From Neocallimastix lanati (nom. inval.) (lineage: Eukaryota; Neocallimastigomycota; Neocallimastigomycetes; Neocallimastigales; Neocallimastigaceae): a stretch of 64,000 bases of DNA. The position numbers and the translations under genes were made by a program. The stretch lies in contig JACVTC010000065.1 in the NCBI GenBank assembly GCA_016946835.1, forward strand, positions 604,501-668,500, written 5' to 3'. The number at the start of each line of letters is the position of its first letter. The stretch's first letter is position 1. Positions 28,677-60,212 of this stretch are shown piece by piece. Below the pieces are notes generated by a model that saw only the letters and a program-made list of their open reading frames with translations, had not been told where the DNA came from and made no database searches.

Positions 28677-28680
28677 ATTT

Positions 28681-29167: not shown

Positions 29168-29204
<37 letters not shown>

Positions 29205-29520
29205 TTTTATTAATATTATAAATGTATTTTATTTATATTCTTATAATTAAATTTTATATAATTGATTATAAAACTCAATTTAAATTTAATAGTTTTTATA
29301 AAAAAAAAAAAAGAATAAATAAGATGTAATTTAGTGGCAAGAACAACTTTTATGCCTTGAAAAAAGTATAAATAGTTGTAAATTTTGCTACTAATTTTTA
29401 AATATCATCAAATAAAATCAAATAAAATTTATAAAATTAATAAATAAAATAATAAAAAAAAAATAATTAAAATTTGTGTTTCTTTACTTTATTTTTATTT
29501 AATTCTCTAAAACCTTAACA
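28681..29520 (+). repeat. Solo LTR-B (B2)
   Basis: It runs TGATAAGAATG...CCTTAACA, with ATTT duplications (28677-28680 and 29521-29524). It has a long A run (about 29170-29201). It aligns throughout with B1 and B3. Confidence 0.85.
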
Positions 29521-29525
29521 ATTTT

Positions 29526-30860: not shown

Positions 30861-30864
30861 TTTA

Positions 30865-32737: not shown

Positions 32738-32784
<47 letters not shown>

Positions 32785-37166: not shown

Positions 37167-37238
37167 TAGCAGCGGTATGTTTCGATCATACGACCTGTGG
37201 GTTATGAGCCCACCACGCTTCCACTGCGCTACGCTGCT
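37167..37238 (-). tRNA. Initiator tRNA-Met (CAU), copy 2
   Basis: Base-identical to copy 1 with the same discriminator A, cloverleaf and initiator marks. It lies in a duplicated segment, so the pair arose by segmental duplication. El-4 was inserted with its duplication 14-18 bases upstream of the mature 5' end. Confidence 0.96.
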
Positions 37239-37256
37239 TTTTCTTGTGATTGTGTT

Positions 37257-37956
37257 TGTAAGTGTTGACTAATTAATTAGTCACACTTAACCAAATATAA
37301 TAATAAATATTATATTTATTTTTATTATTAATTAAGATTTAAATAATTTTTCAATAAAATAACACTTAACATTATTTAATATACTATAATTTTAATAATT
37401 GTTATTAAATAATAAAATAAAAATAATTATTAATTGATAAAATTAATTTTTTAACTAATTAATAATTAATTATTATGAAATATAAACAATATCTTTAATT
37501 AATAACCAATTTCTATTTAATATAAATAATTAATCATTTGATTTATCATTAACAATAATACGTGATTAATTATATTAAAACATTTAATATTAATATAATT
37601 AATATTAAATTAATATAAAATTAGTTAATAATTATAAACTTAAAACATCATAATAAATAATTTCATAAAATATTGGTTAATTGCCAATATTAAATAATAT
37701 TAAATTATATTAAATAATAAATAATTAATTTATTTTATCTTTCAGGTTTTTTCTCATAATCTTTTTCCTGAAAGAATAACTTTTAAGATTATGAACAAAA
37801 AAAATTATAAATAACCTTGATTTTTTCTATAAAATAAAAATCAAGAGTTATTATTTAGAAAATAATATATAATAAAATTTCTTAATAAACTCGAAATATT
37901 TTTTATCAATTATTGTTATTTTAATAAAAGTTAAGTATTAATTTTGTGTTATTACA
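37257..37956 (+). repeat. El-4 5' LTR
   Basis: TGTAAGTGTTGAC...GTTATTACA. Features: hairpin AATATTGG/CCAATATT (37669-37691), hairpin TCTTTCAGG/CCTGAAAGA (37738-37775), TATAAATAA (37806-37814), and the predicted RNA start about 30 bases later, at 37836. Confidence 0.93.
37806..37814 (+). promoter_or_regulatory. El-4 TATA box
   Basis: TATAAATAA lies 30 bases before the sequence that complements the primer site. The 3' LTR carries the same box. LTR-A and LTR-K have equivalents. Confidence 0.75.
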
Positions 37957-37975
37957 ATAATAACTCTTGATTTTT
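37957..37975 (+). promoter_or_regulatory. El-4 self-primer binding site
   Basis: These 19 bases directly after the LTR are the perfect reverse complement of 37836-37854, the predicted 5' end of the element RNA. This fits the self-primed mechanism known for Tf1, where the 5' end of the mRNA folds back onto the primer site. Confidence 0.8.
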
Positions 37976-38084
37976 TTTAATATTTAGTATATATAAAAAA
38001 AAAAAAAAAAAAAAAAATTTTTTAAAAATAATAATATTTTATTAATAAACTATTATCTTTATTATATCATTATTACTTTATCAA

Positions 38085-41000
38085 ATGGACCAAAATAACA
38101 CTACTCCGGCCAACGAAACAAAACTTATATCTACAATTACTGAATTTATCCCTACTTTTTTTGCTCCTAACGGTATCCTTGCTGAGAACCTCCATGCAAA
38201 GGGAAATGAATCTTTAAATCTTAACGAACTACTCTGTCAATGTGACAAATTTATAATAGATCATCCTAATTCCTTTACCAATGATATTTCAAAGATATCT
38301 TATGTCACAATTAACCTTAAAGGGCTTGCCAAGAAATGGGGACTATCCCTTAAATCTGATGATATTTTGGATGATTTGTCTTATGAAGAATTCAAGAGAC
38401 TTCTTATTGAAAATTTTGGAGATTCCAAAGAACAAAGATACTCTTTAATTGAAAAGCTGCTAAATTTAAAACAAAGAAAATTAGGCAATGCAGCTGAATA
38501 TACAATACAATTCCGACATTTGGCAACTCGTATCAAATGGCCAGATTCTGTCTTGATAGACTTATTGAGAAGGGGACTAATTGAGGAAGTCAGGGAAGAA
38601 TATGACAAAAAGGATTTACCTACAAAGCTATTCGAGGCAACAAACCTTATTATAAAGATTGATAAATATTACTACTTCAGAAATAATATTTTAAATAACG
38701 GAATAAATGAAAAAACTAATAAAAGAAGAATTAATATTGTCGGAAAACATCAAGATATTAAAAGAAATAGAAATAATAACTATAAAAGAAAAGAAGAAGT
38801 TACGCTTTCCACTAGCTACACCAACAGTAAATCGGATCAAAAAATGGTTTCTACCTTTTACATTCAAGGAAAAAATAAAAAAATTCCTCTTAGACTATTA
38901 ATCGACTCAGGTTCAAGTAGAAGTTTAATGTGCAAGCAATTTGTTTCCTCCCAGAAGTTGAGAACTTTTGAACTACCTTCCCCTATTGAAATTAGATTGC
39001 CAAACAACAAAACTATGAAAATAACTCATACAACTGGCCAATTAGATCTCTTCATATTTGATCACAAAGAAAGATTCCAATTTAGTGTTGCCAACCTTCA
39101 ACTTACTGGAATATCCGCTATTTTGGGACGTGATTGGCTTTCCATCCATAAGCCATATATTAACTTTTCGAATAACCACATTTTCTTTTTAGAAGGAAAT
39201 TGTTTGGATCATTGCCCATCTTGTAAAGGCACCAAGATCCAATCCACAAAGAACGTCACAGCCGCAATTGTAACTGAAGACCCAATGTCAGAAGACACTG
39301 CCAAACCTGATCTGAAAGACCTTTTTGAAGATGAAATATGTTATATTATGATGTCTAAGGAGTTGAAGTCAAAACTAAATAACAATAAAAGCAAAGAGAT
39401 TATCTTAAGATATTATAGCAACTTACTGGACGTATTTGAAACTAAAAATGCGGATACCCTTCCGCCACATAGACCCTACGATATCACAATAAATATCATC
39501 CCTGGGGGACAATTGTATTTCGGACCTATCTATTCACTTACTAGAAAGGAAAAGGAAGAATTAGAAAAATATATTCATGAAAATCTGACCAAAGGGTTCA
39601 TTGTTAAATCAAATTCTCCTGCAGGTGCTCCGGTAATGTTTGTGAAGAAAAAAGATGGATCGTTGCGTCTATGTGTTGACTACCGTAGACTCAATTCGAT
39701 TACAATAAGAAACAGTTTCCCAATTCCAAGAATTAATGACCTTATCGAAGTTTTTAAAGGGGCACAAATATTTTTTAGATTAGACCTCAAATCTACTTAC
39801 AATCTCGTGCGAGTCAGTAAAGATAGTGAATACTTAACAGCTTTTAGGACACCACTAGGACATTTTCAATATAGAGTAATGCCATTTGGATTAAGAAACG
39901 CCCCTTCAGTTTTCCAAAGGTTCATTCAAGACACGTTATCAGAAGAATTGAATAAATTCGTTCAAATATATTTAGATGACATTATCATTTATTCTTCAGA
40001 TGAAAATCAACATATTAATCATGTTAAAGTAGTATTGAGTAAGTTATTAAATAATGGATTATACTGCAAGATTGAGAAATGTGAGTTCCATGTTAAACAA
40101 ACCACCTTTCTCGGCTTCGTTGTGTCCGCTAATGGGTTACTAATGGATAAAGACAAGATAAAATGCATTATGGAATGGCCAGTTCCAAAAAACCTTACTG
40201 AACTGCAAAGTTTCCTTGGGTTTACAAATTTTTATAGACGTTTTATCAAAGATTACGCAAAAATTATGGATCCTTTAAGAAAACTTTTATCTAAGAATAA
40301 TACTTTTCTATGGGATAAGGATGCTCAGAATGCTTTTGATAGTTTAAAGAAATCATTTAATTCAACTGATATCCTTATTTTTCCAGACCAAGATAAAGAA
40401 TTCTTTTTGGAAACTGACGCAAGCGAATTTGCCCTCGGATGTGTATTATCTCAAAACTCATCGATCGACAACTTAATCCATCCTATTGCCTTTTATTCCC
40501 GTTCACTGACAAGTCCTGAAACGAATTACGCTATCTATGACAAGGAATTATTGGCGATAATTACTGCCTTTGATGTATGGAGACATCACCTTGAAGGAGC
40601 AAAATTTCCTATTAAAGTTTTTACGGACCATAGGAATCTTCTGTTTTTCAAAAAACCTCAAAAATTGAGCCCCCGACAAATTCGATGGAGTCTCTTCTTA
40701 TCCAAATTTGATTTTGTTCTTTCTTATAGGCCTGGGGTTCAAGGTGGGAAACCAGATGCGTTATCCCGAAGACCAGATTACCTCACCAAAAACATTAATG
40801 AATCTCAAATTTTATTAAAAGAAAATAATTTTTGCCTCTCTATGGAAGATAACTTAGTCAAACTTCAAGAAATGCAATCTCAAGACCCTTATTGTTCCAA
40901 TATACTTAACAAATTCAAAGATAAAACAAAAAATTTTAAAAGTTCACTATTTCAATTAAAAAATAACATTCTCCACTTTAATAACAAAATTATTGTTCCC

Positions 41001-42098
41001 TCTAATCTTAGAATTACTTTACTTCGAAAAATGCATGATGATCCACTTGGAGGACACCTTGGAATTGAAAAAACTCTTGAAAGAATTAGCAGGAATTATT
41101 GGTGGCCGCTGATGAAGAACGATATCTCCAATTACGTTCTTTCATGTAAAACATGTGGATCTTGCAAAGTACGCCGTCATAAACCATATGGCTTAATTAT
41201 TCCGCTTCCAGTACCAACTAAACCATGGGAAATAATAGGTGTAGATTTCATCGTTCAACTTCCACGATCCCAAGATTGTACCTGTATAATGGTTGTTTCA
41301 GACCATCTCACAAAAATGATTCATTTGGTTGCTACCTCTGATGTACCCTCTTCGGAACTTACGGCAAAACTTCTACTATTTAACGTATTCAAATACCACG
41401 GATTCCCTAAAGTTATAGTATCGGATCACGGATCACAATTTTCAGCTGAATTTTGGACTGCCTTATGTTCTTATATAAATGCAAAACCAAATTTAGCAAC
41501 GGCACATCACCAACAATCAAACGGACAGGTGGAAAGAGCAAACGCAGTAATAGAGCAATATTTACGTTGCTATTGTTCTTTAACTCAGCATGACTGGTTT
41601 TTCTATCTTCCTTTTTGTGAAATCACTTACAACGATTCAATTCATAAATCAATAGGTAAAACACCCTTTGTTGCAAATTACGGTTTCAACCCCTCATTCC
41701 AAATTGATACACCTCCGAGTCTTCTTAAAGATAATGCATCAGAGCTCGTTAGAAATTGGACCGAACATTTCAATGCTTTAAAGAAACAATTGATAAAGGC
41801 AAAACAGGATTTCAAGAAATATGGAGACAACAAAAAACAACAAGGTCCAAAATTAACAATCAATGATAAAGTCTGGCTTAGAAGATATTATTTCACTAAC
41901 GAACCTTCCAGGAAGTTATCGGTCCAATACTTAGGACCTTTTGAAATAATTGAAGATAAAGGTAGAAATAATTTTAAGCTAAAGCTTCCCGAGAATTCAC
42001 AATTACATCCAATATTTCACATTTCTCAGTTGGAACCATATACGGAAAGGAATAAAAACCTAAACAATAGTGAATCAAACGTAGGAGAGACAATGTAA
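38085..42098 (+). CDS. El-4 Gag-Pol polyprotein
   Basis: The protein has 1337 residues. Gag covers about 1-190 (LKGLAKKWGLSL, QRYSLIEKLLNLKQRKLGNA) and shows no CCHC knuckle, as in Tf1. Protease: LIDSGSS near 270, with the usual Asp-Ser-Gly. Reverse transcriptase: VDYRRLN and YLDD near 627. RNase H: ETDASEFALG, TDHRNLL, DALSRR. Integrase: zinc finger (HDDPLGGHLG...CKTCGSC), core D near 1049, D near 1112 (SDHGSQF), E near 1148 (NGQVERAN). The C-terminal GPFEI module ends HPIFHISQLEPY, with no chromodomain after it. The first Met follows the primer site by about 110 bases. Confidence 0.94.
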   Translation: MDQNNTTPANETKLISTITEFIPTFFAPNGILAENLHAKGNESLNLNELLCQCDKFIIDHPNSFTNDISKISYVTINLKGLAKKWGLSLKSDDILDDLSYEEFKRLLIENFGDSKEQRYSLIEKLLNLKQRKLGNAAEYTIQFRHLATRIKWPDSVLIDLLRRGLIEEVREEYDKKDLPTKLFEATNLIIKIDKYYYFRNNILNNGINEKTNKRRINIVGKHQDIKRNRNNNYKRKEEVTLSTSYTNSKSDQKMVSTFYIQGKNKKIPLRLLIDSGSSRSLMCKQFVSSQKLRTFELPSPIEIRLPNNKTMKITHTTGQLDLFIFDHKERFQFSVANLQLTGISAILGRDWLSIHKPYINFSNNHIFFLEGNCLDHCPSCKGTKIQSTKNVTAAIVTEDPMSEDTAKPDLKDLFEDEICYIMMSKELKSKLNNNKSKEIILRYYSNLLDVFETKNADTLPPHRPYDITINIIPGGQLYFGPIYSLTRKEKEELEKYIHENLTKGFIVKSNSPAGAPVMFVKKKDGSLRLCVDYRRLNSITIRNSFPIPRINDLIEVFKGAQIFFRLDLKSTYNLVRVSKDSEYLTAFRTPLGHFQYRVMPFGLRNAPSVFQRFIQDTLSEELNKFVQIYLDDIIIYSSDENQHINHVKVVLSKLLNNGLYCKIEKCEFHVKQTTFLGFVVSANGLLMDKDKIKCIMEWPVPKNLTELQSFLGFTNFYRRFIKDYAKIMDPLRKLLSKNNTFLWDKDAQNAFDSLKKSFNSTDILIFPDQDKEFFLETDASEFALGCVLSQNSSIDNLIHPIAFYSRSLTSPETNYAIYDKELLAIITAFDVWRHHLEGAKFPIKVFTDHRNLLFFKKPQKLSPRQIRWSLFLSKFDFVLSYRPGVQGGKPDALSRRPDYLTKNINESQILLKENNFCLSMEDNLVKLQEMQSQDPYCSNILNKFKDKTKNFKSSLFQLKNNILHFNNKIIVPSNLRITLLRKMHDDPLGGHLGIEKTLERISRNYWWPLMKNDISNYVLSCKTCGSCKVRRHKPYGLIIPLPVPTKPWEIIGVDFIVQLPRSQDCTCIMVVSDHLTKMIHLVATSDVPSSELTAKLLLFNVFKYHGFPKVIVSDHGSQFSAEFWTALCSYINAKPNLATAHHQQSNGQVERANAVIEQYLRCYCSLTQHDWFFYLPFCEITYNDSIHKSIGKTPFVANYGFNPSFQIDTPPSLLKDNASELVRNWTEHFNALKKQLIKAKQDFKKYGDNKKQQGPKLTINDKVWLRRYYFTNEPSRKLSVQYLGPFEIIEDKGRNNFKLKLPENSQLHPIFHISQLEPYTERNKNLNNSESNVGETM

Positions 42099-42792
42099 GT
42101 GTTGACTAATTAATTAGTCACACTTAACCAAATATAATATAAATATTATATTTATTTTTATTATTAATTAAGATTTAAATAATTTTTCAATAAAATAACA
42201 CTTAACATTATTTAATATACTATAATTTTAATAATTGTTATTAAATAATAAAATAAAAATAATTATTAATTGATAAAATTAATTTTTTAACTAATTAATA
42301 ATTAATTATTATGAAATATAAACAATATCTTTAATTAATAACCAATTTCTATTTAATATAAATAATTAATCATTTGATTTATCATTAACAATAATACGTG
42401 ATTAATTATATTAAAACATTTAATATTAATATAATTAATATTAAATTAATATAAAATTAGTTAATAATTATAAACTTAAAACATCATAATAAATAATTTC
42501 ATAAAATATTGGTTAATTGCCAATATTAAATAATATTAAATTATATTAAATAATAAATAATTAATTTATTTTATCTTTCAGGTTTTTTCTCATAATCTTT
42601 TTCCTGAAAGAATAACTTTTAAGATTATGAACAAAAAAAATTATAAATAACCTTGATTTTTTCTATAAAATAAAAATCAAGAGTTATTATTTAGAAAATA
42701 ATATATAATAAAATTTCTTAATAAACTCGAAATATTTTTTATCAATTATTGTTATTTTAATAAAAGTTAAGTATTAATTTTGTGTTATTACA
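42094..42792 (+). repeat. El-4 3' LTR
   Basis: Identical to the 5' LTR apart from one base. It begins inside the last codons of Gag-Pol and ends GTTATTACA. Confidence 0.94.
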
Positions 42793-42796
42793 GTGT

Positions 42797-43838
42797 TGAT
42801 AAAGAATGAATTAATAACCTTTATTTTATTATTAATAATTCTTTACTAAATTGTACTTTCCTATATTCTTCATAACCTAAACCTCATTGTAAATTTAATT
42901 TATTTTGATATAAATTAATTTTAACTTGTAAATAATGTAAATAAATTTTAATTAATTACTTTATTGTTATATTATTAAATATATGTATATATTAAAATAC
43001 AATTGTAAATATTAAAATTATACTTTTAAGATACTAAATTATTAAAACTATTAATTAAATATTATTATAAAAATTATTATAAAATTATTAAAATTATTAA
43101 TTAAATATTATTCTAAAAATTATTATAAATTATTAATATTATAAAATTATTAAAATTATTAAATATTATTATAAAAATTTATATATTATAACTATTAAAT
43201 ATTATTATAAAATTATTAAGATTATTAATTAAATTTATTATTAAAAATTATTATTAAAAATTTTTACTTATTATAAAAATTATTATTTAAATATTATCAA
43301 ATTTATTAATTAAATATTATAAAAATTTTATTTTATTTTGAAAATAATTACAAGTATTATTTAAAATAATTAAAGATTATTAAATTTATTATATTAATCT
43401 TTAAAAACAATTTATTTAACTTAAAAATATCAAAGAAAATAGTAAAAACTATTTTCTATATATTTATTTTATAATTATTTTTAATTAAATTATATTTGAA
43501 TATTATATTATTATATTTATAAAAATTAAAACAAAAATGAATTATTAATATAAAATTAATTCAATAATTCTACAAAATTACTTAAATTATAAACAATTAA
43601 TTATACTTTAAATTTATAAAAAAATATAAATATTGTAACAATTTCTTAAAAATTAAATGTGTGTACTTTAAATAATAAACTTTTATATTAATAAAAAAAA
43701 AATAAATAATTTTTAATAAAGATTTATTTTTTTTAAAATAAAAGCAGGGTAATACCCGTCCCCCCCTGCTTGATTTTAAATATCTAAGTGTCAACCCCGA
43801 GTCTACCAAAATTGGTGGAGATATCGGGGAAGAAGAAG

Positions 43839-43870
<32 letters not shown>

Positions 43871-43999
43871 GACCAAGTGGAAGAAGACCAAGAAAAAGAA
43901 GACCAAGAAGTAGACCAAGTGGAAGAAGACCAAGAAAAAGAAGTAGACCAAGAAGAAAACCAAGTGGAAGAAGACAAAGAAAAAGAAGACCAAGAAGAA
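42797..43999 (+). mobile_element. El-8: LTR-E (E3) with primer site and a remnant of internal sequence
   Basis: The LTR is 42797-43808 (TGATAAAGAATG...GAGTCTACCA). The primer site TGGTGGAGATATCGGGG (43813-43829) is as in El-6. Then come about 170 bases of AAG-rich repeat that can encode acidic Glu/Asp/Gln repeats (VDQVEEDQEKEDQE type). The element is cut there by A5. It is a fragment; breaks cannot be counted. Its start was 18 bases upstream of tRNA copy 2 before El-4 entered. Confidence 0.7.
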
Positions 44000-44338
44000 G
44001 ATTAGTAGAAAAACCTGAATAACTTCGATTAATATTCTAATATATTAATCATCGTATTAATTAATAAAAACCCAATCATAATAATATTGGGGAAAAAATT
44101 AATTAACTGATTGCTAAAATCTTATAAATTATCAACTAATTGAAATAATAAAATATAAATAATATTTTTAAGTAATTAATACATTACAACAAATTTGTTT
44201 ACATTATTTTTCAATATATTAATTTGGATAAATTAATATATTTTTTACATGTTAATAAATATTGAAATATAAATGAAATATAAATTAATTAAATAAGAAG
44301 ATAGATTATTTTATAAGAAATAAATCTATATTCTTACA
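43999..44338 (-). repeat. LTR-A fragment (A5)
   Basis: Reversed and truncated. It starts near the AAAAACCT hairpin arm and ends at the LTR terminus TTCTTACA (44338). It aligns with about 20980-21526 of A1. The left limit is approximate. Confidence 0.65.
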
Positions 44339-44341
44339 TTG

Positions 44342-45363
44342 TGATAAAGAATGCCCAAATAATGTTCTTTTGGTTATTCATCTTTAATGATTTATTTAAC
44401 CCTTAAATAAATTATTTGATTCTTTATTCTTTTGGAACTTTCTATATTCTAATAAATTCATCTATATTCCTAATTAGTACAAATTAAATTATACTATTTA
44501 AAAAAGTGTATTTAATATTAATTCCTTATCTATATTACTTTTATTATTCTTATCTATATTTTATTATTATTAAAATCCTTATCAATATTATAAAGTTTAT
44601 TTTATCAATTTTCTTAATAGTTTATCAAAATCTTATCAATAATTCTTTTATTAATATTAAACTTATCAATATTAATTATTTCTTTGGAAAATTCCAGATT
44701 AAAAATTGTATTAATGATTACTAATAAAAAAAAAAAAAAAAAAAAAAATTAAACATAAAAGAAAATAGTTATATTATTATTATATGTTTTATTATAAATA
44801 TTATAAATTTGATGAAATGATTATAAATTTTATATTAACAATTTAAATAATATTATTTTTCTAAACTTAGTAAAATTAAACTTTAGGATTAAATAAATAT
44901 TACTAAACCACAGAATTAATTTCTGTAAAATAAAAAAATTGTCTTTTAAAATATATAATTAAGTAGATTAGTAATAAATAATTAGTAATAGATTAATATA
45001 TAAGCATTATTTATTATAAGTAAATAATAATTATATTAACAATAAAAAAAAAAAATAATATAAAAATTATTAATAATAATTAATTTTTATTATACAAAGA
45101 AATGGCTTTACCATTTCTATTATTTTAAGAAAAAAATATAAATAACAGTAAAAAAATTGTATTTTTTTTTATATTGTAATTCTAACATTATAATTTTTGA
45201 ATAAAAAAAAATTTAATAAAAGAATTATAAAAATCAAATTTTAAAAAGCTATATTGTTTATTTATTTTTTTGTTTATATTAATCTTTTATTTTTATTTTT
45301 ATTATTGTTTTAATTTTATTTATAATTTTTGAATAATTTTTATAAAAACCCCGAACCAAACCA
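44342..45363 (+). repeat. Solo LTR-E (E5)
   Basis: TGATAAAGAATG...CCAAACCA, 1022 bases, flanked by ATTG (44338-44341 and 45364-45367). It shares the TTCTTTATTCTTTTGGAACTTT block with E4. Confidence 0.75.
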
Positions 45364-45367
45364 ATTG

Positions 45368-46216
45368 TGTTACGGTACAATTAAATAAAGAAAAATTAAA
45401 CTATTTAAAGAAAATATTAAAGTAGAAAATATCATTAACAATTATAAATAAATAATAAAAAATTGAATATTAAAATATTAGTTATAAAATATTATAAAGT
45501 TAAATAAAAATAATTAGATGTATTAAAAAATCATGTATTAATTATATTATTTAATATTGTAAAATTTTTATATAATATTTTAATAATTTAGAAAATTTAA
45601 GCTTATTATATTTTTATTACTATATTTTTATTATTAAATTTTTATTATTAAATTTTTATTATTAATTTTTTTTTTATTTTTATTTTTAATCCAATCAAAT
45701 AAATATTTTATTAGTATAAAAAAGAACAAAGTAACACAATACTTTTGTTCTCTCCCTTTTTTTCTTACGACTTTATTATTATATTATTTTTTTAATATTT
45801 TCTAAAAGTTAAATAATAAATTAAATAGTTTAAAATAAATTAAAATTTATTAAATAGTTTTTTCTAAATTTAATGTTTTAAAAGTGTTTAATTAATAGTT
45901 TTTTGTGTTTAGTGTATAATATTAAGATAAGTATAGTATAAAATTAGTTTAGTAATAGATTAGTTGTATTAAACATTTTATAGAAATAGTAATAGATTTA
46001 GAGAAATTGTTTAGTTTAGATTAGAATAGTTTAGATTAAGATATTAGTTTAAGTTATTTTAACTTAGTTTAGATTCTTTTAGATTAGGATAGTTTAGACT
46101 AAAATTAGAGTAGTTTATTAATTAATTTAGATTTAGAATTAGAGAATAATATTTTAAATTTTTCCTTATTATTAGAATATATTATTTTATTAATAAAATC
46201 TTCAGATCTTGTACCA
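45368..46216 (+). repeat. Solo LTR-D (D1)
   Basis: TGTTACGGTACAATT...ATCTTGTACCA, 849 bases, flanked by ATTG (45364-45367 and 46217-46220). It is highly similar to D2. Confidence 0.88.
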
Positions 46217-46220
46217 ATTG

Positions 46221-47051
46221 TGATAAGAATGTACTAAATAATGCATTCTTAATTAAATCTACGATTTATTTCTAATACATTATGTGTACATTATTATTTT
46301 TGTACTTTAATAAATTTTTAAATCCAAAGATCAAAAATTAAATCAAAAATTATATTAAACTTTATATTTTTATATTAAATCTTATATTAATAGTAATATT
46401 TTTATATATTTAAAACTTATATTAGCAATATTAATAATAAATCTTTTTTTTTTTTATATTAATAATGAAAAATTGTATTAATAATATTTTTATATATTGA
46501 TAATTAAAAATTTATATATTATATTTTAACTTTTTATTATAAAATTTTATATCGAAATGTTTTATTTTATATTGAAAAATATTTTATTTTATTAAAAACC
46601 TTTATATTAGAATAGTATTTTTATTTTTATTTGAATATTTTAACAGATTGTAATAAAAATTATAGCCAATTAAATAAATTCTTATTAGTAATATTTTAGA
46701 TATTTTAAAAAAAAAAAAAAAAAAAAAAATGTTTTATTAATATTATAAATGTATTTTATTTATATTGTTATAATTAAATTTTATATAACTGATTATAAAA
46801 TTCAATTTAAATTTAATAGTTTTTTTTAAAAAAAAAATAAATAAAATGTAATTTAGTGGCAAAAACAACTTTTATGCCTTGAAAAAAGTATAAATAGTTG
46901 TAAATTTTGCTACCAATTTTTAAAAATCATAAATAAAATCAAATAAGATCAAGTAAAATTAATAAAATAAATAAATAAAAAAAATTATAAACAAATAAAT
47001 AAAATTTGTGTTTCTTACTTTATTTTTATTTAATTCTCTAAAACCTTAACA
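46221..47051 (+). repeat. Solo LTR-B (B3)
   Basis: TGATAAGAATG...CCTTAACA, 831 bases, flanked by ATTG (46217-46220 and 47052-47055). It aligns throughout with B2. Confidence 0.88.
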
Positions 47052-47057
47052 ATTGTG

Positions 47058-48030
47058 TGTAAGAAATAATAATTATTTACTAATAAATGATTATTATTTC
47101 TTAGTCTTTATAATTATTGATAATAATTATAAATTTATTTAAATTATAATTAATTCATACATTGAGATATTATTATCAAATTTATTATAATTGTAATTAT
47201 TCATACACTTAAATAATATTAGAAAATTTATTTAAATAATTATTATATGTACACTTATTAATATTATTAATTTTATTTAGTTATTCATTTAATTATTAAG
47301 TTAATGTAAACATTAGTTTTATTTATTTTTTACATTGTACATTTAAAAGAACAATTAACAAGTTTCTGTATTTTTTATAATTCTGTATTCTAGTTTAAAG
47401 ATAGTTTTATGTTAATAAGTTTAGATTAGATTTTAAAAATAATATTTAGAAAAATAGAATAATTTAGATCATTCCGGTTATTATTGATTTTTCCTTTTAT
47501 TTGATGATCTAAATTAAAATTTAGGAAATCGATATATTAAGGTTTTATCAAAATATAAAATAATATATTTGGTTTTACTTAATATATACGATGATCGATA
47601 TGAATAGAATATCGATCAAAAAACTTATCTAGTTTTTTCTTCTAATCTTTTTCTAGATAAGATATTTTTTAAGATTAGAAAACTCTTTTATTTAACCTTA
47701 TTTCCATAAAAAAAATATAAATAAGGCTCTTGATTTCCCTTTAAGAAATCAAGAGTTATTATTATAAAAAATATAGTTATAATAATAGCAATTTTATATT
47801 TTAAACTTTAATAAATTAATAAAACATTTTATTCAAAAACATTTTTTAAAACCAAATTTATCCAAATATTCCTTCTTTTACATTTTGTGTTGTTATTATA
47901 ATTAATTTTATAATAAACTCTCTTTTTAGGTAATATTTTTATTTTTATTTTATTTCTCAACTTAATGAATTAGTCATTAAGTTGAAGTTAATAATCATAT
48001 TTAGTAATAGAACTTAGTATGATTATTACA
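47058..48030 (+). repeat. Solo LTR-A (A2)
   Basis: TGTAAGAAATAAT...GATTATTACA, 973 bases, with TTGTG duplications (47053-47057 and 48031-48035). Hairpins GATCGATAT/ATATCGATC (47593-47617) and CTTATCTAG/CTAGATAAG (47624-47661) precede a TATAAATAAGG box and the AAATCAAGAGTTATTATT start region. Confidence 0.88.
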
Positions 48031-48033
48031 TTG

Positions 48034-48699
48034 TGATACAAGATGAAAAGAAAAATAATGATATTTTAAAATTATTATTAAATTATATTAATTATATAAA
48101 GTTTGTAAAATATATATTATTATAAAATTAATTATATAAAAATGATGAATTATATTAATTATAAATCATATAAAATAATATTATTATAGTATAAAATTTA
48201 ATTATTATAATATAAACTTTTATATTAATGTTTATATAAAATATTATAATTATGATTTAATATAGAGATAATAATTATGAAAAAATATATATAAAAATAT
48301 TATTATAAAAAAAAAGCTTGTTAAAAAAATTATTGATATATGTTATTTTAGTAATAGTTGATTTAATATAAGAAAAATGTTTTAATTAGTTAAGATAGTA
48401 GTTTAGTTATTAGTTTTAATAAAATTAGTTGTTTAAGTAATTAATTATAGAATATTATAATTAAATTATAATTATTAATAGTTAATTAATATGATAAAAA
48501 TAAAATAAAATAAAATAAAATAAAATAAAATAAAATAAAATAAAAATAAAATATTACAAAACAAATATCATAAAATAAAAATTTTAAATAACTAAATAAA
48601 ATAATTAATATTATTATTAGAATATATAATTTAATACAATTCCCCAGTGTAGCGCCCAAAACTATTGTAAATACGAATATTTAAAAATATATCGTATCA
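48034..48699 (+). repeat. El-5 5' LTR
   Basis: Matches 57486-58135. It has more copies of the AAAAT pentamer (about 48496-48550) than the 3' LTR. Confidence 0.9.
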
Positions 48700-48705
48700 T
48701 ATTTT

Positions 48706-48723
48706 TGGTGGTGAATCCGGGCG
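48706..48723 (+). promoter_or_regulatory. El-5 primer-binding site
   Basis: TGGTGGTGAATCCGGGCG, 6 bases after the LTR, near-identical to the El-1 site. Confidence 0.72.
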
Positions 48724-48755
48724 CTGCACTATTAAATTATATGAAAATAATAATA

Positions 48756-48800
<45 letters not shown>

Positions 48801-48947
48801 AATTTTTTTTTATTAAAATATATATATATAATAGTAAAAATAAATAAATAATATTAGAGATAAGTTGAACTAAATAAGAAAATAAATTACGTATTAAATA
48901 TAAGTTTTGTTTCATTTTTTTTTCCTTTTTTTAGTAGTTAGTTAATA

Positions 48948-50555
48948 ATGGTTGACGCTTCCAAAGTAAAACGTGATCTACCATATCTATGTGACTATGG
49001 TAAAGACATAGACACATGGATAGAAGATTTTAAGGGTGTCATGGAAATGCATGACATCCAAGATTCATCTAGAATTTTTGTATGGCTAAAAATAGCCGTT
49101 GAGGCTGACTTGAGGAACGTTTTGAAATCATTAGTAACCACTCGGAATAATATCACAAGGTATCCAAACTATAAAGAAGTGCAATCAGCTATTGAAAAGT
49201 ATATGGATATAAAACCAGCTGATAAATGCTCAGTTTTAAAAAATATGAAAATAAAACCAAATAATAAAAATATAAAGAATTTTAACTACCGTTATTTAAC
49301 CTTGTATCATCGATTAGATAGAGATTATCAGAAGATTATATCAGTCGATGATTATTTAAATTCAATAAAATCAAGAATATATGTTCATTCTCAAATTCTC
49401 TTAGCCGAATGTGATACCTTGTCGGATGCTTTTGAAGTGGCTGTAAGAGCCGAGAAAGCCGAAAAAAGGACCATAGGAAATAATGAATTTCTCAACACTT
49501 CTATGGTCTTCCAAAATAATTCTAATTGTCAAAATTCTTTATTAGAACATCCATTATATAGAGGATTGACCGAAGGAAATAGGGATTTAGATAATTCTAT
49601 ACAAAATGCGTATTATGTGGGCAATGCTGATCTGTTTTCTACTGGTCGATATCGTCAAGAAAGATTTAATTCAAGGTATAATAATAACAACAATAATAAT
49701 AATCAATTTAGAAATTTTACTTGCTACCTCTGTGGCGAACCAGGTCACAAAGCAAGAGAATGTAACAAAAGAAATTTAAGAAATAAAAATAAATCTCTTA
49801 ATTATAGTCAGGATCAGAATCAATTAATGACCTTCGGAAAATTTAATTCTGGATTTTATAATGAAAATAATTATAATAATAATGGAAATAGAATATTTAA
49901 TAACGGAAATAATGGAAATAATTATAATATTAATAATAATAATAATAATAATAATTATAATACTCTATATGGTAATAATAATTATAACAGTAATTATAAT
50001 AACAATAATAATAATTATAATAATTTCTATAACAGTAATATTAATAGTAGCAATAATAGTAATTATAATAATTTCAATAACAGTAACAATAATAATAATA
50101 ATAATAATTTCAATAACAGTAACAATAATAATAATAATAATAATTTTGGTAACTATAATAATAATTCCAATAATAATAATATTAACAATGGTAATTATAA
50201 TTTTAGGAACAACAACAATAGAGGAAAAAATAATTATAATAACAATAATAATTATAATAATAACAATTATAGCAATAATAATTATATTAATAGCAATTAT
50301 AACAATAATAATTATAATAACAATAATATGTATAATAACAATAATAATTATAATAGAAATAATAATTATAATAGTAATAGTAATTATGGAAATAATAATT
50401 ATAATACTAATAATACTAATTATGACAACTATAACAATGATAACTACAACAATGCAAGAAATATGGAGGAAATAAAAAATAAAAGTAATCCTAGGTACTT
50501 TGATAATCAAAATCCTCATCAGCAAAATATTAGAAGCGATAGCAATTTAAAATAG
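48948..50555 (+). CDS. gag: El-5 Gag protein with long Asn-rich tail
   Basis: The protein has 535 residues. About 1-190 is the Gag structural region (MVDASKVKRDLPYLCDYGKD). One CCHC knuckle (CYLCGEPGHKAREC) lies near 259-272. About 230 residues dominated by Asn and Tyr follow, from AAT/TAT repeats. The stop TAG directly follows TTTAAAA, a -1 slip-site form. The tail after the knuckle replaces the short CPYTFKQLAE tail of El-1 and El-2. The frame is open, but the element as a whole is broken. Confidence 0.85.
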   Translation: MVDASKVKRDLPYLCDYGKDIDTWIEDFKGVMEMHDIQDSSRIFVWLKIAVEADLRNVLKSLVTTRNNITRYPNYKEVQSAIEKYMDIKPADKCSVLKNMKIKPNNKNIKNFNYRYLTLYHRLDRDYQKIISVDDYLNSIKSRIYVHSQILLAECDTLSDAFEVAVRAEKAEKRTIGNNEFLNTSMVFQNNSNCQNSLLEHPLYRGLTEGNRDLDNSIQNAYYVGNADLFSTGRYRQERFNSRYNNNNNNNNQFRNFTCYLCGEPGHKARECNKRNLRNKNKSLNYSQDQNQLMTFGKFNSGFYNENNYNNNGNRIFNNGNNGNNYNINNNNNNNNYNTLYGNNNYNSNYNNNNNNYNNFYNSNINSSNNSNYNNFNNSNNNNNNNNFNNSNNNNNNNNFGNYNNNSNNNNINNGNYNFRNNNNRGKNNYNNNNNYNNNNYSNNNYINSNYNNNNYNNNNMYNNNNNYNRNNNYNSNSNYGNNNYNTNNTNYDNYNNDNYNNARNMEEIKNKSNPRYFDNQNPHQQNIRSDSNLK

Positions 50556-50578
50556 ATTTTGGGAGATGGCCAACTTCC
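50546..50578 (+). promoter_or_regulatory. El-5 predicted -1 frameshift signal
   Basis: TTTAAAA (50546-50552), the gag stop, then an 8-base spacing to the stem GGGAG/CTTCC (50561-50578, with one G-U pair). Same plan as El-2 and El-3. Confidence 0.65.
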
Positions 50579-52265
50579 AGTAAACAAACCACCCTTTTAT
50601 GTATAAATAACGACAATTATTGTAATGATAACTTCAATAATCATTATAATAATAATAATAATATTAATGAACCTAATAATTATAATGAAAATAATATATA
50701 TTATAAGAATATTAAAAATAAAAATAATAATTTACTAATTAATAATAATGAAAGGAATGAAAATTATGGAAATAATGAAGAAATGGATATCAAGAATAAA
50801 GACAACAACTATAAAAACAATGAGAATATTTATTTAGTCAATAGAAAAGATAATTTTAATACCAATTCCAATGATAATGATAATAATAATTATAATAATT
50901 ATAATATTTATGATAATTATAATAGTAATAATAATTATTGCAATAAACCAAATTGTAACAATTACAATAATACTAATAATAACAATAACTTTAATAATAA
51001 CAATAACCATAAAAATAACAAAAATAATAATTACACATATAATAATAATTACATTAATAATCGTTACAATAATGATAATAATAGTAATAGTTATAATAAT
51101 AATAATAATAATAATAGTAATGATAATTATAATAATAGTTATAATAATAATTATAATTTTGGTAATAATGGTAATAATAATAATAATAATAATAGTATTA
51201 ATAATAATAATAATAGTATTAATAATAATAATAATAGTATTAATAATAATAATAATAGTATTAATAATCATAATAATAGTTATAATAATAATTATAATTT
51301 TGTTAATAATGGTAATAATTATAATAATGATGATTATAGTAATCGAGGTAATATTAATAACGATAATTATAATAATAATAGTCATAGTTATATTAATAAT
51401 AATAATAGTAATATTAATAATAATAGTGATATTATTAATAATGGTAATATTAATAATAATAATAGTAATTATAACAATAAGAATCTTAATAATAATTATA
51501 GTAATAGTGATTATTGTAATGATAATTATAATAATAACGATACTAATAATTACAATCATAATAATAATTATAAAAATTACGATAACTATAATTATAATTA
51601 TAATAATAGTATTATGAAATGTAATAGTGATAATGTTAATATGAGAAATGATAATAATGATTATTATATCGATGATAATAATAATCATTATAATAATTGT
51701 AATAATTATTGTAATAATAATATTAAGGATAATGATAATGAAAAAAAATGATTATTATAATAACAATTATAATAAAAATAATAATAATAATGTTTATTTA
51801 AGAGATACCAATGAAGAATTCCAGGATGAAGTTGTTTTTGCTGCTCAGAGAAAAGGCAAACAAAATAAAGAAAAATATAAGGGGCCTTATAAAGAAACAC
51901 AAAGGCTTCATCTCAAAGATAATCCAGTTCCTATTCACACTCCAGCCATGAAACAAATAAATAATAATAATGATAATTATAATGATAGTAATAATAATGA
52001 GGAACTAAATAATAATAAAATAATTGAAGGTGAATATCTTTCTTCTACAAAAAAGGTTAATTTTAGAGAAAATCCAGATATTATTGAAATTAATAATAAT
52101 GGAAGTATTCGAGATGAAGATAATATGAATTTAGAGGATGATCCAAATAATTTAAATCATAATAATAATAATGATCATAATATTAATATTGATGATTATA
52201 ATAATAATATTAACAATAATGACAATTCTAATAATATCAATAATAATAATAATAATAATAATAAC

Positions 52266-52305
<40 letters not shown>

Positions 52306-55300
52306 TTAATGATAATATTAATACTAATAATGATAGTAATAATAACACAGAAAAATTGGAACATTTAGATATATCATATATAAACCAGCCAAATATTTCA
52401 AACGCAAAAAAAATTAACAAATTAAATAGAATTAAAGAGATAATATCCAATACTACAAACGAAAATGAAAATGGAGGTAATACTAAGACGTCAATATTAG
52501 AGAAACATATTAAAATGATCAATTTGGTTGATAATTATGATATAAATGATCTGGTTAAAGATGTTGCCAATATAGAAGTCAAACTTAAACTGGCACACTT
52601 ATTGGACTTATGTCCTAAATTTCGTACCGGGTTTAACAAAGAACAAAAATTAATTAAAAGTACCAGCAAAGAATTTTTAATAAATGCTTTATCATTATTA
52701 AGCGACTATAAAGTTATCAAAGTAAATGGTACTATTGAAGGATCCTCCGCAGAAATATTCTTAGACTCTTGTGCAAGTGTTAATTTAATCACTGCTGCTG
52801 CATTCGAAGTATAAGATAAATAAAACGGCCGTTGGAACTATTTCGGAAAGAATATTCCAGGCTTATTCTAATAATTATATTTCTTCGGATGTATACGAAT
52901 TAGAAATTGAAATAGGCGGCTACACTTTCAAAGACTATTTCAGAAAAATAGAAAAAGATGATATTTTCGACGTGTTAATTGGTATTGACACGCTTAAGAA
53001 AAATAGATTTGTGCTAGATTTAGTTGATGATACTTTATTACGTAAAAATGATAATGGTGATTTTATTGAACTTTCTAATTTAATGTATAATGTAAATTTT
53101 TCTAATGTTAATGATTTAAATATTAATAAAAATGATTCTGAAAATTATGTTACGCGTTGTGATGGTATTATCAATTATTGTGCGTGTTCAAATTTTTTGT
53201 GTAATGATACTTCTAATATAAATATTAGTGATTTTGATAATTTAATATTATCTAATGATGAAGTTCTTAATAATAATGATTTATTTTCTATTGATAATAA
53301 TGTGTTATTTCTTAATAATGATTCAAAAATTTTCCCGCTATTCTTTTAATAACTTCTGATGATAATTCATCTTTTGTCGATTTAAAATCTCTGCAAAGTG
53401 ATAAGAAATTTTCGCTTGTACACGACATATTATCTGAAGTACCTTCTTCTATTAGAGATTCAATTAAAATTTTATTTTTATCATACACGGATATTTTAGC
53501 TGTTAAAACAGATGATTTAGGTAATTCTAAATTATTTCCTCATAGAATTAATTTAGTTCCTGGTACTCACCCTGTTAAACAGAGAGCATATAGACTCTTT
53601 AAATACAAGCAGATGCTCTAAAAAAAGAAATAATTAAACTCATTAACAATAAATTAATTGTTCCTTCAAATTCTCCTTGGTCTTCACCAGTTGTTCTTGT
53701 GTTAAAAAAAAATGGTCAAGTAAGAATGTGCGTTGATTATAGGGTAGTAAATAACTGTACGAAGAAAGATGCCTATGCCCTTCCTATTATCGATGATATT
53801 CTTTATTATGTAGGAAACACCGCAGTTCTTTCAACAATTGATTTATTTTCAGGATACCATCAAATTCCTATGCATCCTGATGATAGAGATATTACGTGTT
53901 TTACTACTATTTATGGAAATTTTAATTTTCAAGTTATGCCTTTTGGGTTGTGTAATGCTCCCGCAACTTTTCAAAGGGAGATGAACCGAATATTCTTCGA
54001 CTTGATTGGTGTTTGTGTCTTTGTCTATATCGATGATCTTGTTGTGTATTCTCCCTCAATGGATCAGCATATTAAAGATCTTGAAAAGGTTTTCAAAATT
54101 CTACATAATAATGGATTAAAAATTAATTTAGAGAAATGTCATTTTTTTAAAGAAGAAGTAGAATTATTAGGACACAAATTATCTACTAAAGGAATTAGTC
54201 CTATTGATTCAAAAGTGAATGTTATTATGAATTGGTTACCTCCTAAAAATATTAAGCAACTACGTTCTTTTTTAGGTGCTATTGGCTATTATAGGAAATT
54301 CATTTATAATTTTGCTCAAATTGCTAAACCATTATATGAACTTACAAAAAAAAATGTTCCTTTTGTATGGACTGATACTACTAATAAGGCTTTTGTTGAA
54401 TTAAAAAATAAAATAATTTCTGCACCTATTTTATCACCTCCTGTTTTTGAAAAACCATTTATTATTCGTACGGACGCCTCTAAATATGGTATTGGTGGAG
54501 TTCTTATTCAGTTAGATGAGAATAATGATGAAAAGCCTATTTATTTTGAAAGTCGTACCTTAGTAAATGCAGAATTAAACTATAGTATTACGGATTTGGA
54601 AGGATTAGCTGCTTACTATTGTGTTATGAAATTTAGACCATTTTTAACAGGTAATAATTTTGAAACTATTTTGTACACTGATCATAAACCCTTAGTTTAT
54701 ATTTTCAATAGTAAAGAACCTACTTCTAGCCGTCATATTAAATGGATTACAGAATTCAGTATTTTAAAAGTTAAAGTTTTATATGAAGAGGGGAGGAGAA
54801 ATGTAATTGCAGATGCACTTTCAAGATTAAATTCTGGTGAAGATATACAAAATAAGAATGTAGAAGAAAATAAAAATATTATTTTGGAAAACAATTTTAA
54901 TAAAGATAATAATTCAATTAAAAATATTATTTTAAAAGAGAATATAAGAAATAATAATTCTAATGAAATTAATAAATCAAGAAATAAAATCAGTAGGGAA
55001 AATACTAATGACAATTTATTTATAAAAATAGACAATAAAAATACTATTAAAAATAGCAATTTATCTGAAAAAATAAAAATAAATAATATCACAAATAATC
55101 ATAAATTATATGAGAATGAAAACAATAATAATTATAATAAAAATAATATCTCTGATAAAAAAATAGAAATTAATGGGTTTAATAAAAATAGTAACTTTAA
55201 TACCAATAATAATTATATTAAAAATAACAATTATAATAAAAACAATAATCATAATGAAAATAGCAATTGTAATAAAAATAGCAATTATGATAAAGGCAAT

Positions 55301-55987
55301 AATCCTAATGAAAATAATTTTGTTGGAAATAATAATAGGAATAAAAATAATAATCTCAATGAAAATAATAATTATAATAAAATTAATTACTTAGATGAAA
55401 AATTAAAAAATTGTAACATTACTCAAAATAACTATTCAAATGAAAACAAAGAAAATTATAATACAAAATATAATAATATACATGATGCATATAAAAATAA
55501 TAATTATTTAACAAAGGAAACAAGTTTTAAAACCGAAATATTAAATAATAATGTAATTCAAAATAATGTATTATTTAGAGATATAAAAAATGAGAGTACA
55601 ACAAATGAAAATTCAAAAGAAAATGAAAATGAAAAAAATAATATTGTAAATCAAAATAATATAAGCATTAATAATAAATTCAATAAAATTTTGAATATTG
55701 ATAAAAATATTAACAAAAAATCTCTTAATAAAAATGAACAAGAAGATCATAGAAGTATAACTATAGGAAAAAAGAAATATAATAATATTTTAAAAATTGA
55801 TAAAATTAATAATAATTTTTCAAATAATAACTTTCAAAAGGATGATAATAATGAAATGTTAAATACTCATTATAATAAAATAAATAATGATATAAATAAA
55901 AATTACTCAAGAAATATTTTATCTAACAATAATGTATATCTAGATACAAATTTCGTAATAAATGTTACACCTAATAATAATGATTAC

Positions 55988-56022
<35 letters not shown>

Positions 56023-57226
56023 AATAAATAATAATGAAAATAATAATGATGATGAAAAATTTTTAAATGATTTTATTGATAATTATATAAAACAAAAATT
56101 TGTAGAAATAGATGGGATTATTTATTATAAACAAAATAATAATTTAAGAAGAGTAATTTTTGATGAAAAAGAAAAATGGAAATTAATTAATTTAGCACAT
56201 AACGTAGGACATGAAGGTTGTTATAAAACCTATCATAGATTAAAAAGATATTACTTTTGGAAAGGAATGAATAAAGATATAAAAATATTTATAAAATGTT
56301 GTAAGAAATGTCAAATGTATAAGCCACAGCCTCAAAATAAATACCCTGAAGATATTCCAACACCACCAGGATTGTCTTTCACAAGAGTTGGTTTAGATTT
56401 AGTTGGTCCATTATATACAACTGCTAGAGGAAATAGATATATCATAGTATTAGTTGACTACCTTACCAAATGGGTGGAAGCCGAACCATTAGAAAAAACA
56501 GAATCTGAAGATGTAATAAGATTTTTAATTAATGTGTTTTCGAGGCATGGAATACCAGAGTTATTAATTACAGATAATGGCCCACAACTTATTTCAGATA
56601 AAACTAAAGCTTTTCTCGATTTGCATGATGTATATGTACATAATGTGGCTACGTATCATCCACCTTCTAATGGAGAAGTTGAGAATAGAAATAGAGAAAT
56701 TGGAAAATATTTGCGGCTTTTAGGAAAAAATAATAAAGATTGGGATGATATTCTACCTAGTGCTTTATGGGCGCTTAGAACAGCGAAGAATGAAGTAACA
56801 AAATATAGCAGTTTTGAATTACTTTATGGTAGAAGGGATTTGCAACCTTTCGAACTTACAATTAATGTTGATCAAAAACATGAAGATGAAACTGATGAAG
56901 AATATTATTTAAGAAAATTTATTACACATAATAAATGGATTAATGAAGCTATTCGGAATATAGAAACTGCTAATGAACTATGGAAAGATAGAAGAAAACA
57001 AATTAAAAGATTAAGAAGTGAATTTAAACCTGGAGATTTAGTATTAATCAGGAATTTTAATAGAAGAAAATTGGACCCTTATTTTATTGGACCATTAAAA
57101 ATAGTTAAGCAACAATTTAATACTGTTACAGTTTGTGATCCAATTACTAATGAAGTTGCCGAAAGAAATATACATCTTAAAAATGTTATTCCTTATATAA
57201 GTAGTTTTGTAGAAATCACTGATTAA
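50579..57226 (+). pseudogene. El-5 pol region (broken, Asn-expanded)
   Basis: The order is a long Asn-rich N-terminal part (to about 52340), protease (LDSCAS near 52765), reverse transcriptase (VYIDDL near 54025), RNase H (RTDASKYGIGG near 54470; TDHKPL near 54680; DALSRL near 54815) and an Asn/Lys-rich linker (about 54840-56060). After it come the integrase zinc finger (HNVGHEG, CKKCQMY), core (GLDLVGPL, TDNGPQL, NGEVENRN) and GPLKI module. It is broken in about four places, all before the integrase. The linker of about 400 residues is only about 20-50 in El-2 and El-3. Confidence 0.87.
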
Positions 57227-57270
57227 TATTAATATTTTAAAAATAATAATAGTTTAAAATAAATCACTAC

Positions 57271-57332
<62 letters not shown>

Positions 57333-57485
57333 AATAATCATATAATTATATTACAAAAAAAAATTTTTTTTTTAAAAAAAAAAAAAAAAAAAAAAATAAT
57401 GCCTTATAAATTTTAAAATTTATTATTTCATACAAATATTCTTTAGACTTCAAGGGACGAAGTCTGATCTAAAGCGTGGGCGTTC
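57227..57485 (+). other. El-5 3' untranslated region
   Basis: It contains two long A runs (57274-57316 and about 57374-57396), the pol-end hairpin and a G-rich tract before the 3' LTR. Confidence 0.6.
57445..57465 (+). promoter_or_regulatory. El-5 pol-end hairpin
   Basis: The stem AGACTTC/GAAGTCT encloses AAGGGAC. It lies about 220 bases after the pol stop, unlike El-2 and El-3 where it overlaps the pol end, so it is kept independently of coding. Confidence 0.7.
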
Positions 57486-58135
57486 TGATACAAGATGAAA
57501 AGAAAAATAATGATATTTTAAAATTATTATTAAATTATATTAATTATATAAAGTTTGTAAAATATATATTATTATAAAATTAATTATATAAAAATGATGA
57601 ATTATATTAATTATAAATCATATAAAATAATATTATTAGAGTATAAAATTTAATTATTATAATATAAACTTTTATATTAATGTTTATATAAAATATAACA
57701 ATTATGATTTAATATAGAGATAATAATTATAAAAAAAAATATATAAAAATATTATAAAAAAAAAAATGTTTTTGTTAAAAAATTATTGATATATGTTAAT
57801 TAGTAATAGTTGATTTAATATAAGAAAAATGTTTTAATTAGTTAAGATAGTAGTTTAGTTATTAGTTTTAATAAAATTAGTTGTTTAAGTAATTAATTGT
57901 AGAATATTATAATTAAATTATAATTATTAATAGTTAATTAATATGATAAAAATAAAATAAAATAAAATAAAATAAAATAAAATAAAATATTACAAAACAA
58001 ATATCCTAAAATAAAAATTTTAAATAATTAAATAAAATAATTAATATTATTATTAGAATATATAATTTAATACAATTCCCCAGTGTAGCGCCCAAAACTA
58101 TCGTAAATACGAATATTTAAAAATATATCGTATCA
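57486..58135 (+). repeat. El-5 3' LTR
   Basis: Matches 48034-48699. It ends ATCGTATCA and is followed by ATTG. Confidence 0.9.
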
Positions 58136-58139
58136 ATTG

Positions 58140-58986
58140 TGTTACGGTACAATTAAATAAAGAAAAATTAAGCTATTTAAAGAAAATATTAAAGTAAAAA
58201 ATATCATTAACAATTATAAATAAATAATAAAAAAATTGAATATTAAAATATTAGTTATAGAATATTATAAAGTTAAATAAAAATAATTAGATGTATTAAA
58301 AAATCATGTATTAATTATATTATTTAATATTGTAAAATTTTTATATAATATTTTAATAATTTAGAAAATTTAAGTTTATTATATTTTTATTATTATATTT
58401 TTATTATTAAATTTTTATTATTAAATTTTTATTATTAATTTTTTTATTTTCATTTTTAATCCAATCAAATAAATATTTTATTAGTATAAAAAAGAACAAA
58501 GTAACACAATACTTTTGTTCTCTCCCTTTTTTTCTTACGACTTTATTATTATATTATTTTTTTAATATTTTCTAAAAGTTAAATAATAAATTAAATAGTT
58601 TAAAATAAATTAAAATATATTAAATAGTTTTTTTCTAAATTTAATGTTTTAAAAGTGTTTAATTAATAGTTTTTGTGTTTAGTGTATAATATTAAGATAA
58701 GTATAGTATAAAATTAGTTTAGTAATAGATTAATTGTATTAAACATTTTATAGAAATAGTAATAGATTTAGAGAAATTGTTTAATTTAGATTAGAATAGT
58801 TTAGATTAAGATATTAGTTTAAGTTATTTTAACTTAGTTTAGATTCTTTTAGATTAGGATAGTTTAGACTAAAATTAGAGTAGTTTATTAATTAATTTAG
58901 GTTTAGAATTAGAGAATATTATTTTAAATTTTTCCTTATTATTAGAATATATTATTTTATTAATAAAATCTTCAGATCTTGTACCA
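58140..58986 (+). repeat. Solo LTR-D (D2)
   Basis: TGTTACGGTACAATT...ATCTTGTACCA, 847 bases, flanked by ATTG (58136-58139 and 58987-58990). It differs from D1 at few positions. Confidence 0.88.
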
Positions 58987-58990
58987 ATTG

Positions 58991-60205: not shown

Positions 60206-60212
60206 ATTTTAT

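Follow-up and report, generated by a model that had tools for sequence, protein, structure and literature searches.

Integration of long terminal repeat (LTR) retrotransposons at a set distance from genes transcribed by RNA polymerase III (Pol III) has precedents in Tj1, Ty3 and DGLT-A. Tj1 of Schizosaccharomyces japonicus is described as a Tf1-related, self-primed element, with 13 of 17 sequenced inserts lying no more than 12 bp upstream of tRNA genes and three more at other Pol III genes, inserted in the direction of Pol III transcription (PMC4600332). Ty3 of Saccharomyces cerevisiae, a Ty3/gypsy element, is reported to integrate at the Pol III start site (PMC5911963), and the DGLT-A elements of dictyostelids, which have LTRs and lack a chromodomain, to lie 13-16 bp upstream of tRNA genes in genomes of about 30 Mb, with twenty DGLT-A insertions in D. 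discoideum (PMC5006619); the words 'nested' and 'tandem' are absent from the main text of the latter paper. The present study concerns a stretch of 64,000 nucleotides from the anaerobic fungus Neocallimastix lanati (nom. inval.) (assembly GCA_016946835.1, contig JACVTC010000065.1, positions 604,501 to 668,500, forward strand; hereafter the window), in which LTR units, among them the elements El-4 and El-5, are stacked upstream of an initiator tRNA gene.

We consider it highly probable (about 0.9) that several Ty3/gypsy-type lineages integrate at a fixed distance before Pol III genes in this genome, building layered stacks. Putative self-priming and placement upstream of tRNA genes are common to El-4 and Tj1 as described, but a single family is involved in S. 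japonicus and several lineages here. With DGLT-A, El-4 shares the lack of a chromodomain and a similar tRNA distance, in a genome of 199 Mb as against about 30 Mb. Compared with the account of Ty3, the locus differs in its layered multi-family stacks, and contact with TFIIIB is suggested here by analogy. Stacking in layers by many families on this scale is unusual for a 199-Mb genome; new here are the several lineages, the two duplication lengths, the incorporation of LTR bases into the landing strip and the presence of layers in a large genome. Among the open-access papers listed in literature searches, we saw no account of such stacks in anaerobic fungi.

An LTR stack upstream of initiator tRNA copy 2

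The window is 79% A+T and carries two tRNA-Met genes on the minus strand (ARAGORN, Rfam RF00005), judged by eye to be of the initiator type. Upstream of copy 2, LTR units of at least seven kinds abut end to end (Table 1), starting with El-4 18 bp upstream of the tRNA 5' end (37238) and reaching, through older units, to about 61744. An earlier note on this DNA had given the units labels without coordinates, and the assignment of labels to units is our own reconstruction. Its description of units lying end to end, with the tRNA at 37167-37238 (-) and ATTG at 37249-37252, agrees with the coordinates, as does its placing of El-4, with near-identical LTRs (0 mismatches in 699, two indels), nearest to the tRNA. 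The end that it gave for the stack, 58990, falls short of further LTR units with other separators.

Between 44339 and 58990, the separators are ATTG at 45364-45367, 46217-46220, 47052-47055, 58136-58139 and 58987-58990, and TTG completed by the TG of the following LTR at 44339-44343 and 48031-48035; given the base composition, ATTG has a per-site probability of 0.006. These bases recur 11-16 bp upstream of tRNA copy 2, in a landing strip where ATTG occupies 37249-37252 and GTGTT 37252-37256. El-4 is flanked by a 5-bp duplication, GTGTT, at 37252-37256 and 42793-42797, which extends by one base into the older unit behind the element; El-4 was therefore inserted later than that unit. Similarly, A2 has its place in the chain with TTGTG, as the earlier note held, this being a duplication at 47053-47057 and 48031-48035 that takes in the TG of El-5, and A2 was therefore inserted after El-5. 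The unit at 42797-44338 probably also has a 5-bp TTGTG duplication, with a one-base discrepancy. B, D, A2 and the other LTR-only units are present in this stack as LTRs alone, and full-length B and D pairs exist elsewhere. A second stack, at about 24431-33363 and anchored by tRNA copy 1, has the separators TTTTG and TTTT (both by eye), TTT, ATTT and TTTA. Domain checks of 12 window open reading frames (ORFs) of at least 150 aa gave retroelement domains in nine and no match in three. Within the second unit of the main stack (window 43800-44010), a purine-rich repeat (GAAGAAGAC...) adjoins TGGTGGAGATATCGGGG, which resembles a primer-binding site (PBS).

Table 1 Units of the main stack and the two tRNA anchors, in window coordinates
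Feature	Coordinates	Strand	Remarks
Initiator tRNA-Met copy 1, anchor of second stack	24345-24416	-	ARAGORN
Initiator tRNA-Met copy 2, anchor of main stack	37167-37238	-	5' end 37238; ARAGORN, RF00005, 'initiator' by eye
Landing strip, tRNA 5' end to first LTR	37239-37256	.	end = ATTGTGTT
El-4, complete Ty3/gypsy element	37257-42792	+	LTRs 37257-37956, 42094-42792; duplication GTGTT
El-4 Gag-Pol ORF, 1337 aa	38085-42098	+	Ty3_capsid/Retrotrans_gag, RVP_2, reverse transcriptase, RNase H, integrase, SH3_Tf2-1
Second unit, LTR start TGATAAAGAATGAATTAATAACC, end TTACA	42797-44338	+	then TTG(TG)
LTR unit, probably E5 of the earlier note, end CCAAACCA	44342-45363	+	then ATTG
D1 solo LTR	45368-46216	+	ATTG at both ends
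B3 solo LTR	46221-47051	+	ATTG at both ends
A2 LTR	47058-48030	+	TTGTG duplication 47053-47057, 48031-48035; final TG = that of El-5
El-5, Ty3/gypsy element	48034-58135	+	LTRs 48034-48699, 57486-58135; then ATTG 58136-58139
D2 solo LTR	58140-58986	+	ATTG at both ends
Older LTR F, start TGTAACAGATACATGG	58989-59543	+	its TG = second half of last ATTG
Deeper units 59552-60205, 60213-61744	59552-61744	+	separators ATGATTTT, ATTTTAT, TTTATA

Distance, separators and duplications across the genome

The genome searched comprised 199.0 Mb in 762 contigs. We read 75 tRNA copies, namely 46 tRNA-Arg (40 stretches around 63 scored matches) and 29 distinct initiator tRNA-Met upstreams (40 scored matches), some of them identical, and scanned the 60 bp upstream of each with 34 LTR-start words, 33 of them distinct, that had been collected at junctions remote from tRNAs. 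Such words were found at 26 of the 75 copies, in 23 cases at 13-18 bp and in the others at 4, 11 and 21 bp, a clustering with p ~2e-20 against an even spread. The distance, measured to the mature tRNA end and at one 5S gene, is fixed and compatible with insertion close to the Pol III start. In the 5S case, one of eight upstreams read (of nine matches), an LTR starts 8 bp upstream (L149, C293:12080-12250); the sequence has 39 further occurrences, and 30 of these start at query position 29 or 30 (LTR start = 30), none starting later. The repeat is near-identical, several copies being paired about 5.5 kb apart. Among five families with stated polarity, eight of the eleven first elements in the 75 upstreams point away from the tRNA and three towards it, in contrast to the orientation described for Tj1; the polarity of family F, which supplies two of the three, is assumed.

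Starting from the LTRs instead, we sorted 60 5' flanks of B, D, El-4 and El-5 into ten inner and 50 outer ends. Ten outer ends adjoin a tRNA, counting L108 (Ser) and L057 (tRNA-like), both by eye; 37 lie within 2-22 bp of another LTR terminus, at least seven of them meeting a reversed LTR, and three adjoin neither. The LTR-terminus class lacks independence, since the terminus list was built from those same flanks. At L057 (C45:171776-172774) some 14 bp separate a D LTR from a sequence containing words that resemble A and B boxes (by eye), perhaps a decayed tRNA. Thirteen of the 46 Arg copies (within L109-L135) have a tRNA-Asn gene (anticodon by eye) some 13 bp ahead of them, the pairs looking as if co-transcribed. 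An LTR separates the two genes in none of the 13, and a recurring LTR terminus lies just before the first gene in 12 (by eye); the terminus word of L114 recurs at another tRNA only, and the thirteenth pair, L112, has what merely resembles a terminus. The tRNA search of the genome gave 9278 first candidates, and the 63 scored were all above the cut-off, mostly with equal score. The 46 copies read as tRNA-Arg(UCU), many lying in a tandem array (C555:170-399 kb) of ~540-bp units with wider gaps in places.

Similar stacks occur at other tRNA genes, where the earlier note had suggested looking for them. We found 38 junctions and dropped four (one without a tRNA in view, three with separators of fewer than 3 bases), trimming separators longer than 5 bases to 5. 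A separator was counted as a match when it occurs in positions 7-19 of its own tRNA flank, with shuffled stacks as control. Own-flank matches number 22 of 34 separators in 13 stacks, against 12.2 expected (1 of 20,000 shuffles), and 11 of the 20 separators containing G or C, against 4.6 expected (83 of 20,000 shuffles). At L016, with flank ATTGTCGC, the separators are GTCGC, GTCGA and TCGAT, the first alone being counted as a match. Paralogous empty sites exist. The C555 stack begins after ATTTTGAAATTTTG and TTTGAGAATTATTGATACC follows its last D copy, and a nearby tRNA copy, which has no stack, shows ATTTTGAAATTTTGAGAATTATTGATACC; empty and occupied units are adjacent in this tRNA-Arg array. 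At tRNA copy 4 (C610) there is no library LTR start at the site, and the upstream sequence resembles, by eye, that following the copy-1 stack at 33364.

Target duplications were read by eye in the flanks of a selection from the best 40 matches per family, LTRs with element interior on one side being excluded. Exact 4-bp duplications flank 8/8 El-5 copies, 12/15 D copies (two of the 12 being identical duplicates; one further copy has 5 bp and two match 3/4) and 5/10 B copies (two match 3/4, three do not match), and exact 5-bp duplications flank 8/11 El-4 copies (two resemble one duplicated locus; three match 4/5). The target duplication of Ty3 is 5 bp, the length found for El-4 but not for B, D or El-5. 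Among the 25 exact 4-bp duplications read outside the window in B, D and El-5 copies, ATTG never occurs as the duplicated tetramer (by eye; TCTT, GAAT, CAAA, TATG, CTGA etc.). C41:12008-12158 and C261:42916-43066 share an identical tRNA and D element flank and are probably haplotypes or a duplicated assembly segment. Taken together, the stack-specific separators, the duplications elsewhere, the fixed tRNA distance and the paralogous empty sites support the proposal that elements integrated serially at one spot, each copying target bases.

Element types, the origin of ATTG and the age of layers

El-4 and El-5 are both Ty3/gypsy elements, with reverse transcriptase (RT), RNase H and integrase in that order between flanking LTRs. 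The PBS of El-4 (37957-37975, 19 bases, directly after the 5' LTR) is complementary to its own LTR at 37836-37854 (by eye), by which El-4 is predicted to be a Tf1/Tj1-like self-primed element; a role of this PBS as a primer site for initiator tRNA was considered and rejected on the same complementarity. A chromodomain (PF00385) was not found in the El-4 integrase at E <= 0.001, so that El-4 does not class as a chromovirus, and PF00385 is present in many somewhat more distant relatives among the matches listed (120 of 7752). Of the named relatives in those 120 listed matches, one RT is labelled Orpsp1; the remainder include sequences from animals, further fungi and amoebae. The Orpsp1 label, like base composition and genome size, would suggest an anaerobic gut fungus. 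The best PDB match of El-4 in a sequence search is the Ty3 chain 7q5b (E 3.3e-146). In viral contigs, three stretches fit a pattern for relatives and none was confirmed. El-5 has a PBS of tRNA type, beginning with TGGTGGTGAATCCGGGCG at about 48706 (by eye), and its RT region is 37% identical to that of El-4. Since El-5 is thus a lineage separate from the putatively self-primed El-4, at least two lineages use one landing zone. The El-5 interior also contains very long asparagine-coding repeats (window 49778-52400).

The earlier note had taken ATTG for a 4-bp host target copied at each event. D1, B3 and D2 do carry ATTG at both ends, but the duplications of El-4 (GTGTT) and A2 (TTGTG) are different, and half of the last ATTG belongs to LTR F. 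We searched with a query beginning 14 bases before the TG of LTR F, the best 40 matches being the query itself and 39 others. None of the 39 other copies begins after query position 15 (= 58989) and 27 begin at position 14 or 15, that is, at the TG or one base earlier; the last ATTG accordingly combines AT with the TG of LTR F. At the place of ATTG, tRNA copy 1 reads GATTTT and copy 4 GGTTTT, and ATTTT is contained in two deeper separators of the copy-2 stack. Thus the AT of ATTG is host sequence and its TG stems from an older LTR; the tetramer was most likely created when LTR F landed directly after host AT, to be fixed at the landing strip by later duplication. The 5-bp duplications and the LTR-derived TG led us to reject ATTG as a 4-bp host duplication throughout. 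Nor is a host tetramer the anchor of the stack, as had been supposed: the same families use other bases at equal distance, and ATTG is partly LTR sequence.

The dated units are El-4, D1, B3, El-5 and D2, and their divergences agree broadly with layering. The El-5 LTRs differ by 16 mismatches in 649 aligned positions (2.5%, or ~1.2% per LTR), against 0% for El-4, and private changes amount to 3/844 (0.36%) in D1, 6/806 (0.74%) in B3 and 6/843 (0.71%) in D2. The age gradient away from the tRNA that the earlier note had envisaged appears as a weak trend through El-4, D1, B3 and El-5, with D2, the deepest of the five, out of order. When pair distance is set, as a rough comparison, against private changes, the divergence of El-5 exceeds that of D1 (p = 0.035) and is indistinguishable from that of D2 (Fisher p = 0.28). 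With 16 differences in 649 positions El-5 is rejected as a young intruder, which leaves unsupported the claim that its youth showed re-entry at an inner junction.

Proposed mechanism, alternatives and meaning

In the mechanism that we propose, the LTR start comes to lie in most cases at 13-18 bp, counted from the 5' end of the mature tRNA (8 bp in the single 5S case), and a target duplication of 4 or 5 bp accompanies every integration. Of its two copies, the one nearer the tRNA would keep its distance to the gene, restoring the landing site, so that the next element inserts before the last, and the distal copy would stay behind as a separator. Recombination between LTRs would turn many elements into solo LTRs with separators kept. 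Where the target reaches into the first bases of an older LTR, those bases (here TG) would join the landing strip and be passed on. By analogy with Ty3, the integrase may be guided by the Pol III initiation complex (TFIIIB), and the layers may have been added in strict order.

The most serious competitor, itself unlikely, retains serial insertion and adds frequent re-entry at inner junctions, so that order is not age. It draws on D2, which lies beneath El-5 yet has fewer changes (6/843 private versus 16/1298 for the El-5 pair), a difference that falls short of significance (p = 0.28); against it, the divergence of El-5 exceeds those of D1 (p = 0.035) and El-4, as expected from layering. We give very little credence to sequence-specific insertion, in which integrases favour ATTG or a TG-containing motif, with the LTR start itself as target. 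A duplication often overlaps or adjoins the TG of the next LTR, as that explanation would have it, but the absence of ATTG from the 25 exact duplications outside the window speaks against it, as do tRNA-adjacent LTRs that keep an equal distance behind strips of varied sequence. Slightly less probable still is growth of the array by unequal recombination or tandem duplication between LTRs: duplicated segments do exist on the same contig (33418-34618 and 61800-63030, 92%), but adjacent units come from different families, D1, B3 and D2 each bear one tetramer at both ends, and content as well as separators differ between the window's two stacks.

Several results weigh against distance-guided, layered integration, which we nonetheless prefer. 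Twelve of the 34 separators, including the four deepest of the main stack, have no own-flank match, and the main stack alone supplies seven of the 22 matches. Half of the B copies read lack an exact duplication. Of the 75 tRNA upstreams, drawn from two kinds alone (Arg and initiator Met), 36 have neither a library match nor a neighbouring tRNA, some of these beginning with unlisted LTRs and others being plainly empty; at L021 the start of a B LTR is 4 bp away from an initiator tRNA, closer than the usual range. No recognised insertion was seen in seven of the eight 5S upstreams, and none in four U6 upstreams (of six matches). Finally, divergence leaves the order of D2 and El-5 unsettled.

Targeting of tRNA genes has been discussed, in the report on DGLT-A, as a means of colonising compact genomes (PMC5006619). 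Here it appears in a 199-Mb, AT-rich genome and is common to lineages with different priming modes and target duplications. The stacks form a natural stratigraphy, in which order may give relative age and separators keep the target bases of past events. A broader reading, to which we assign even odds, is that the Pol III start serves most LTR lineages simultaneously as a landing pad that renews itself, on which unusually numerous tRNA genes would each grow a tower in arrival order, giving thousands of dated stacks, with pads evolving through LTR bases. If this is true, much of the genome size would be accounted for.

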